Assembly: GCF_031877795.1 (NCBI RefSeq)
Contig: NC_133937.1
Location: 18,255,501 to 18,319,500, forward strand
Direction of reading: 5' to 3'
From: Strix aluco
Taxonomy: Eukaryota; Chordata; Aves; Strigiformes; Strigidae
Length of the DNA: 64,000 nucleotides
Made by a program: the position numbers and the translations under genes. Within the stretch, counting starts at the first letter, position 1. Each line of letters starts with the position of its first letter. Of the stretch, positions 34,287 to 49,461 are shown one piece after another. Under the pieces are notes generated by a model. It made no database searches, was not told where the DNA came from, and saw only the letters and a list, made by a program, of their open reading frames with translations.

Positions 34287-34597
34287 TCATTTTAGCTTGG
34301 TCACTTTCTTGATCCAGGGTACATATTTGCTGACCTTTGTGTACACACCAGGGGAATCCTTCCGACCACAGCCATAACCCCAGGAAGTGATCCCCAAAAT
34401 GATCCAGCGTCCGTTTGACCTCTGACACATGAGTGGCCCTCCACTGTCACCTTGGCAGCTGTCCACCCGTTTATCTTCAGAGAGGTTCCCAGCACAAATC
34501 ATGCGGTTAGTGAACTTCTGCCCATAACGGACCTCACAGTCTTCCCGTGGGAGAAGAGGCACCACCCCCTGCAGCAGGGTTCTCGAGTAGGACTTCC
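34287..34597 (-). CDS. PRSS12-like exon 15 (catalytic Ser, stop)
   Basis: Encodes residues 718-820 and the stop. [16 protein letters not shown] carries D763 (S1 pocket) and S769 (nucleophile); ITSWGYGCG and [10 protein letters not shown] follow. The C-terminus WIKKVTKLK nearly matches human neurotrypsin. No canonical AATAAA is visible on this strand in the roughly 1 kb after the stop, so the end of the 3' UTR is not located. Confidence 0.96.

Positions 34598-49461: not shown

Follow-up and report, generated by a model that had tools for sequence, protein, structure and literature searches.

Between the genes for ZSWIM8 and CHCHD1 the analysed DNA carries a gene for a neurotrypsin-like protease. 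The locus raises the question of whether this is neurotrypsin (PRSS12) itself at an unfamiliar position or a second gene, and of whether it is intact. The window, by which we mean the whole stretch of 64,000 nucleotides that was analysed, is C7:18255501-18319500; C7, C4, C13, C28 and the like are contigs of a genome of 1.41 Gb in 202 contigs. A preliminary description, made from the sequence of the window, had taken the gene to be complete, distinct from PRSS12 and undescribed.

The flanking genes were recognized from protein starts that resemble those of ZSWIM8 (window position 17358, minus strand) and CHCHD1 (window position 56699, minus strand); the two names are our own assignment from this resemblance and not from a database hit. 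About 16 kb (18400-34286) separates the 5' end of the ZSWIM8-like gene from the 3' end of the neurotrypsin gene. At the gathering thresholds Rfam gave no match in the window.

Gene model and protein

Exons 3-15 of the window gene (45803..34287 on the minus strand; Table 1) form a series of 13 with AG/GT borders at all 12 introns, and they join in a single frame of 782 codons that ends in TGA in the last exon. The probability of a chance open frame of 782 codons at the composition of this gene is about 1e-15. The 5' end is modelled with less confidence. The ATG at 49461 is a plausible start for a candidate exon 1, judged from its sequence, and an exon 2 is then required to carry phase 0 to phase 1. 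For the latter we list the best-scoring of many short candidates, which is a guess from a simple consensus count. With both exons the model has 822 residues. An alternative exon 2 (47209..47248, minus strand, 40 nt) has its acceptor in common with the 46 nt version and yields 820 codons, such that the difference between 820 and 822 is a choice of exon 2 donor. The 15 exons and 820 codons described previously are thus upheld for exons 3-15, but exon 1 is only plausible and exon 2 a guess.

Table 1. Features of the window gene, with exon lengths beside those of the neurotrypsin gene on C4 from SRCR1 to the stop codon.
Feature	Position in window	Strand	Length, C4/window (nt)	Content
CpG-rich stretch	49801..50200			5' side of exon 1; possible promoter
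Exon 1 (plausible candidate)	49390..49461	-		ATG at 49461; 24 codons; hydrophobic, signal-peptide-like start; GTAAG donor; phase 0
Exon 2 (candidate, a guess)	47203..47248	-		46 nt; top of many short candidates by simple consensus count
Exon 3	45567..45803	-		Kringle domain
Exon 4	44139..44262	-	139/124	SRCR1, first half
Exon 5	43246..43421	-	179/176	SRCR1, second half
Exon 6	42583..42730	-	151/148	SRCR2, first half
Exon 7	41608..41786	-	179/179	SRCR2, second half
Exon 8	41056..41197	-	142/142	SRCR3, first half
Exon 9	39784..39986	-	197/203	SRCR3, second half
Exon 10	38637..38778	-	142/142	SRCR4, first half
Exon 11	38172..38377	-	206/206	SRCR4, second half
Exon 12	37521..37599	-	79/79	Hinge and zymogen activation site RRKKR|IIGG
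Exon 13	37150..37272	-	123/123	Protease part with catalytic His
Exon 14	36328..36608	-	281/281	Protease part with catalytic Asp
Exon 15	34287..34597	-	308/311	Protease part with S1 Asp, catalytic Ser and stop TGA

In the two 200-base bins of the CpG-rich stretch the observed/expected CpG ratio is 0.69 and 0.64, at a G+C content of 0.765 and 0.53.

Pfam assigns four SRCR stretches (365 bits), a Trypsin domain (206.3 bits) and a Kringle domain to the 822-residue model. The kringle scores 41.8 bits in the model and 47.8 bits for exon 3 alone, above the cut-off of 34.3, and is identical at 31 of 74 positions to the kringle of a provisional human PRSS12 sequence. The protease motifs place the catalytic residues at His622, Asp672 and Ser771, the S1 residue at Asp765 and the activation site at Arg576|Ile577; which residue in each motif is catalytic follows the pattern of the trypsin family. 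The earlier claim that all of these are present is confirmed, its numbers (H620, D670, S769 and D763) being the same residues shifted by two. A basic, furin-type activation site precedes IIGG, with RRKKR|IIGG of the window protein aligned to RRQKR|IIGG of the gene on C4 discussed below. The N-terminal proline-rich segment of neurotrypsin is absent from the model, in which about 39 residues precede the kringle (exon 2 being uncertain) and include two prolines, one of them inside the signal-like part. Because this segment is absent we file the gene as a neurotrypsin-family paralogue and not as PRSS12.

By summed score the top solved-structure matches to the window protein are the tandem SRCR proteins M130/CD163 and PIT54, and the M130 chains outrank 6h8m, a chain named Neurotrypsin, among the structure alignments listed. 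M130/CD163 and PIT54 are not known to have a kringle or protease domain and have only SRCR domains in common with the window protein.

A second neurotrypsin gene and the age of the pair

The same genome holds another neurotrypsin gene at C4:69.747-69.789 Mb, which from SRCR1 to the stop codon comprises 12 exons that join in frame. A genome-wide protein search returned the window exons and two C4 protease exons among the matches listed, a genome-wide SRCR search gave C4 matches at 69.766-69.776 Mb, and the remaining exons from SRCR1 on were located by local tblastn of C4 DNA. Intron phase is equal at every border compared between the two genes, for 12 of 12 exons. The 5' exons differ: the window gene has a separate kringle exon, and none was found for the C4 gene.

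The genome-wide searches gave two further observations on SRCR domains. At C7:36705951-36716711 there are thirteen equal-scoring SRCR matches with a spacing of about 866 bases (in two close score classes in the protein search), which represent either a very recent tandem array or an effect of the assembly. C10:2136546-2141739 and C202:746155-751348 hold five pairs of SRCR matches in inverse order, four of equal and one of nearly equal score; this suggests an allelic or falsely duplicated contig.

From SRCR1 on, the window and C4 proteins agree at 420 of 700 aligned residues; the window protein and human PRSS12 likewise agree at 420 of 700, and the C4 protein matches human PRSS12 at 608 of 707. 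The human sequence in these comparisons is the provisional one, which was not drawn from a database. At 643 ungapped sites the window protein alone differs at 202, the C4 protein at 21 and the provisional human protein at 21. The chain 6h8m, which we presume, from a title cited in PMC10855680, to be the third SRCR domain of mouse neurotrypsin, provides a check that is independent of the provisional human sequence: against it SRCR4 of the C4 protein scores 233.0 bits and SRCR4 of the window protein 189.2 bits. On these identities and bit scores we assign the C4 gene as the PRSS12 of this genome, and the split between it and the window gene very likely predates that between birds and mammals. 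A deep date for the pair draws on synteny, the bit scores of one solved domain and the provisional human sequence rather than on a rooted tree with fish or lamprey.

Were the window gene a relocated PRSS12 and the sole neurotrypsin in the genome, its unchanged domain order and 60% identity to the provisional human PRSS12 would be accounted for. This reading is refuted by the C4 gene, and we attach practically no probability to it: the C4 copy is closer (86% to the provisional human PRSS12) and faces an NDST gene, as a passage of PMC4359090 describes for NDST3 and PRSS12 in vertebrates. The preliminary description, which regarded the window gene as an intact member of the neurotrypsin family distinct from PRSS12, is therefore borne out, and the second, closer PRSS12 whose presence it had left to be settled lies on C4 beside genes of the NDST and SEC23/24 families. 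No third neurotrypsin appears on C13 or C28 among the 65 matches listed from the protein search; as this search scored 55 of 494 candidates and itself listed just two of the 12 C4 exons, a further copy may have escaped it.

Between the window gene and the C4 gene a fraction of 0.692 of 195 fourfold sites differs, which is near saturation. Codon positions 1, 2 and 3 differ at 0.308, 0.241 and 0.589 over 705 codon pairs, and the NG86 method gives a dN of 0.33 with dS undefined. Between SRCR1 and the C-terminus the C4 protein has 36 cysteines, every one of which is conserved in the window protein. A conserved open protein despite near-saturated silent sites is consistent with prolonged purifying selection acting on the two genes taken together, the window branch not being separated out.

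A recently dead pseudogene might still look intact. We consider such a state very improbable and reject it, the frame being open and the key residues kept: exons 3-15 retain 782 stop-free codons and AG/GT at 12 of 12 introns, and both the catalytic residues and the 36 cysteines compared have persisted while silent sites approached saturation. Moreover, PMC9516828 reports an annotated neurotrypsin gene on chromosome 6 of the finch, which in chicken bears the name NTL, and neurotrypsin genes are retained in both chicken and zebra finch according to the relevant parts of PMC2865498 and PMC9516828. The window gene is an intact, old duplicate of PRSS12.

Duplicated neighbourhoods and probable identity with NTL

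Genome-wide family searches placed the neighbours of the two genes (positions in Mb). On C7 the order is NDST at 18.178-18.188 (+), the window gene at 18.290-18.305 (-), Sec23_trunk at 18.337-18.341 (-) and MYOZ at 18.42 (+); on C4 it is NDST at 69.672-69.704 (+), PRSS12 at 69.747-69.789 (-), Sec23_trunk at 69.841-69.8495 (-) and MYOZ at 70.03 (+). Order and strands are identical at the two loci, and the arrangement in which NDST faces the protease is seen at both. CaMKII lies farther out on the NDST side in both blocks (C7:18.05 and C4:67.89 Mb), on opposite strands. The searches resolve families only; from the human map we presume the pairs to be NDST2/NDST3, SEC24C/SEC24D, MYOZ1/MYOZ2 and CAMK2G/CAMK2D. 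Further NDST, CaMKII and MYOZ members lie within 0.2 Mb of one another on C13, with a Sec23_trunk gene about 3 Mb off, and C28 has one further CaMKII; members of all four families on C13 and the CaMKII on C28 are as expected of a four-fold paralogon. The C7 and C4 blocks are not the sole sites of these families, since C4 has a second NDST gene at 68.46-68.51 Mb (-) as well as weak fragments of this family at 68.96 Mb, and other Sec23_trunk genes are found at C3:17.9, C4:59.2 and C4:105.2.

A colinear pattern such as that of C7 and C4 is the trace expected of the early vertebrate genome duplications and gives the window gene a clear origin. A retroposed copy is ruled out, as it would be without introns, and a local copy would bring no NDST, SEC23/24 and MYOZ partners and is likewise ruled out. 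A later duplication, within birds or sauropsids, followed by fast evolution is a further reading: a protein divergence of 40% is attainable in this way, and the published dating of the duplication, in the part of PMC2865498 that deals with it, is given as data not shown. We nevertheless hold it to be very unlikely, since the window protein is as far from the PRSS12 of the bird as from the provisional human sequence and since the neighbours were duplicated too, with their order kept. We are thus confident that the window gene and PRSS12 are duplicate partners that go back to the early vertebrate whole-genome duplications, the window gene being a functional second neurotrypsin and most likely the avian NTL. 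The position between CHCHD1 and ZSWIM8 is explained by the duplicated block, which the preliminary description missed. We found no statement of a genome-duplication origin for this gene in the literature searched, a search that had most subscription papers outside its scope.

The gene itself is mostly known already, contrary to the earlier view of an undescribed protease gene. In 2010 neurotrypsin was listed among the duplicated genes of zebra finch and chicken, mammals having lost one of the copies (PMC2865498, in the passage on this family). In 2022 the relevant section of a further report gave the zebra finch neurotrypsin gene LOC100229828 on chromosome 6, annotated NTL in the chicken assembly GRCg7w, and identified an extra finch copy, LOC100217566, as a false duplication of it (PMC9516828). 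That false copy is a separate matter from the PRSS12/NTL pair. Chicken chromosome 6 presumably carries CHCHD1 and ZSWIM8. The window gene, like LOC100229828 a neurotrypsin gene, is most likely the avian NTL, judged by family and chromosome and not by sequence. Less known are the clear paralogon and a possible difference between the two copies in the kringle.

The kringle and the proposed function

The likely first exon of C4 PRSS12 (C4:69789365-69789053), a prediction from one genome and one assembly, begins MTFAGFVVALVIG and is proline/glycine-rich. It lies within a kilobase of 81% G+C and ends in phase 1, with an in-frame join to SRCR1. The joined C4 protein has no Pfam kringle match at E up to 1, and visual inspection of the first exon revealed none. 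When the whole genome was searched for Kringle at E up to 10, the 64 matches obtained included the window kringle and none on C4 near 69 Mb. A pattern search and tblastn over C4:69734001-69834000 found no kringle either, the best tblastn match among those listed being unconvincing at E 0.12. Because no kringle was found for C4 PRSS12, the window gene may be the only kringle-bearing neurotrypsin of this genome.

We regard the apparent lack of a kringle in C4 PRSS12 as a lead. It is conceivable, though rather less probable than the contrary, that in birds PRSS12 lost its kringle, the first exon having become a G+C-rich proline/glycine stretch joined to SRCR1, and that NTL alone among their neurotrypsins has the full kringle-SRCR-protease architecture, with mammals having lost NTL and kept the kringle of PRSS12. 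If this is true, kringle-dependent targeting would have moved to NTL in birds. A passage of PMC3927609, which may refer to NTL, mistaken there for PRSS12, states that birds conserve the kringle, the four SRCR domains and the trypsin domain.

Neurotrypsin/PRSS12 is MEROPS S01.237. The window gene resembles it in the four SRCR domains, the furin-type activation site and the trypsin domain, in sharing the intron phases of the C4 gene and in its order relative to the NDST and SEC23/24-family genes; human PRSS12 has a kringle too (PMC9616769). The window gene differs in lying at a paralogous position on C7, flanked by ZSWIM8 and CHCHD1, in a protein identity of 60%, in a model that lacks the long proline-rich N-terminal segment and in a kringle on an exon of its own.

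The product, with its putative signal peptide, would be a secreted zymogen. A furin-like convertase would cut after Arg576 of RRKKR|IIGG to leave a two-chain trypsin-type protease, with a preference for Arg/Lys conferred by the S1 aspartate. The kringle and four SRCR domains would hold and regulate the protease at partners in the extracellular matrix or on the cell surface, where by analogy with neurotrypsin it might act, helped by calcium, on a narrow set of extracellular substrates. The relevant sections of PMC9616769 describe calcium-dependent cleavage of agrin by neurotrypsin at its alpha and beta sites, binding of sez-6 by the neurotrypsin kringle and of calcium by murine SRCR3. A synaptic role for the window protein, as the preliminary description proposed, is conjectural. 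A truncating PRSS12 deletion in humans is believed to be a cause of intellectual disability (PMC2865498, in the passage on this gene). Should birds have retained a second, kringle-bearing copy and mammals have lost it, data on bird neurotrypsin must specify the gene concerned, and removal of both genes may be needed for the full effect.
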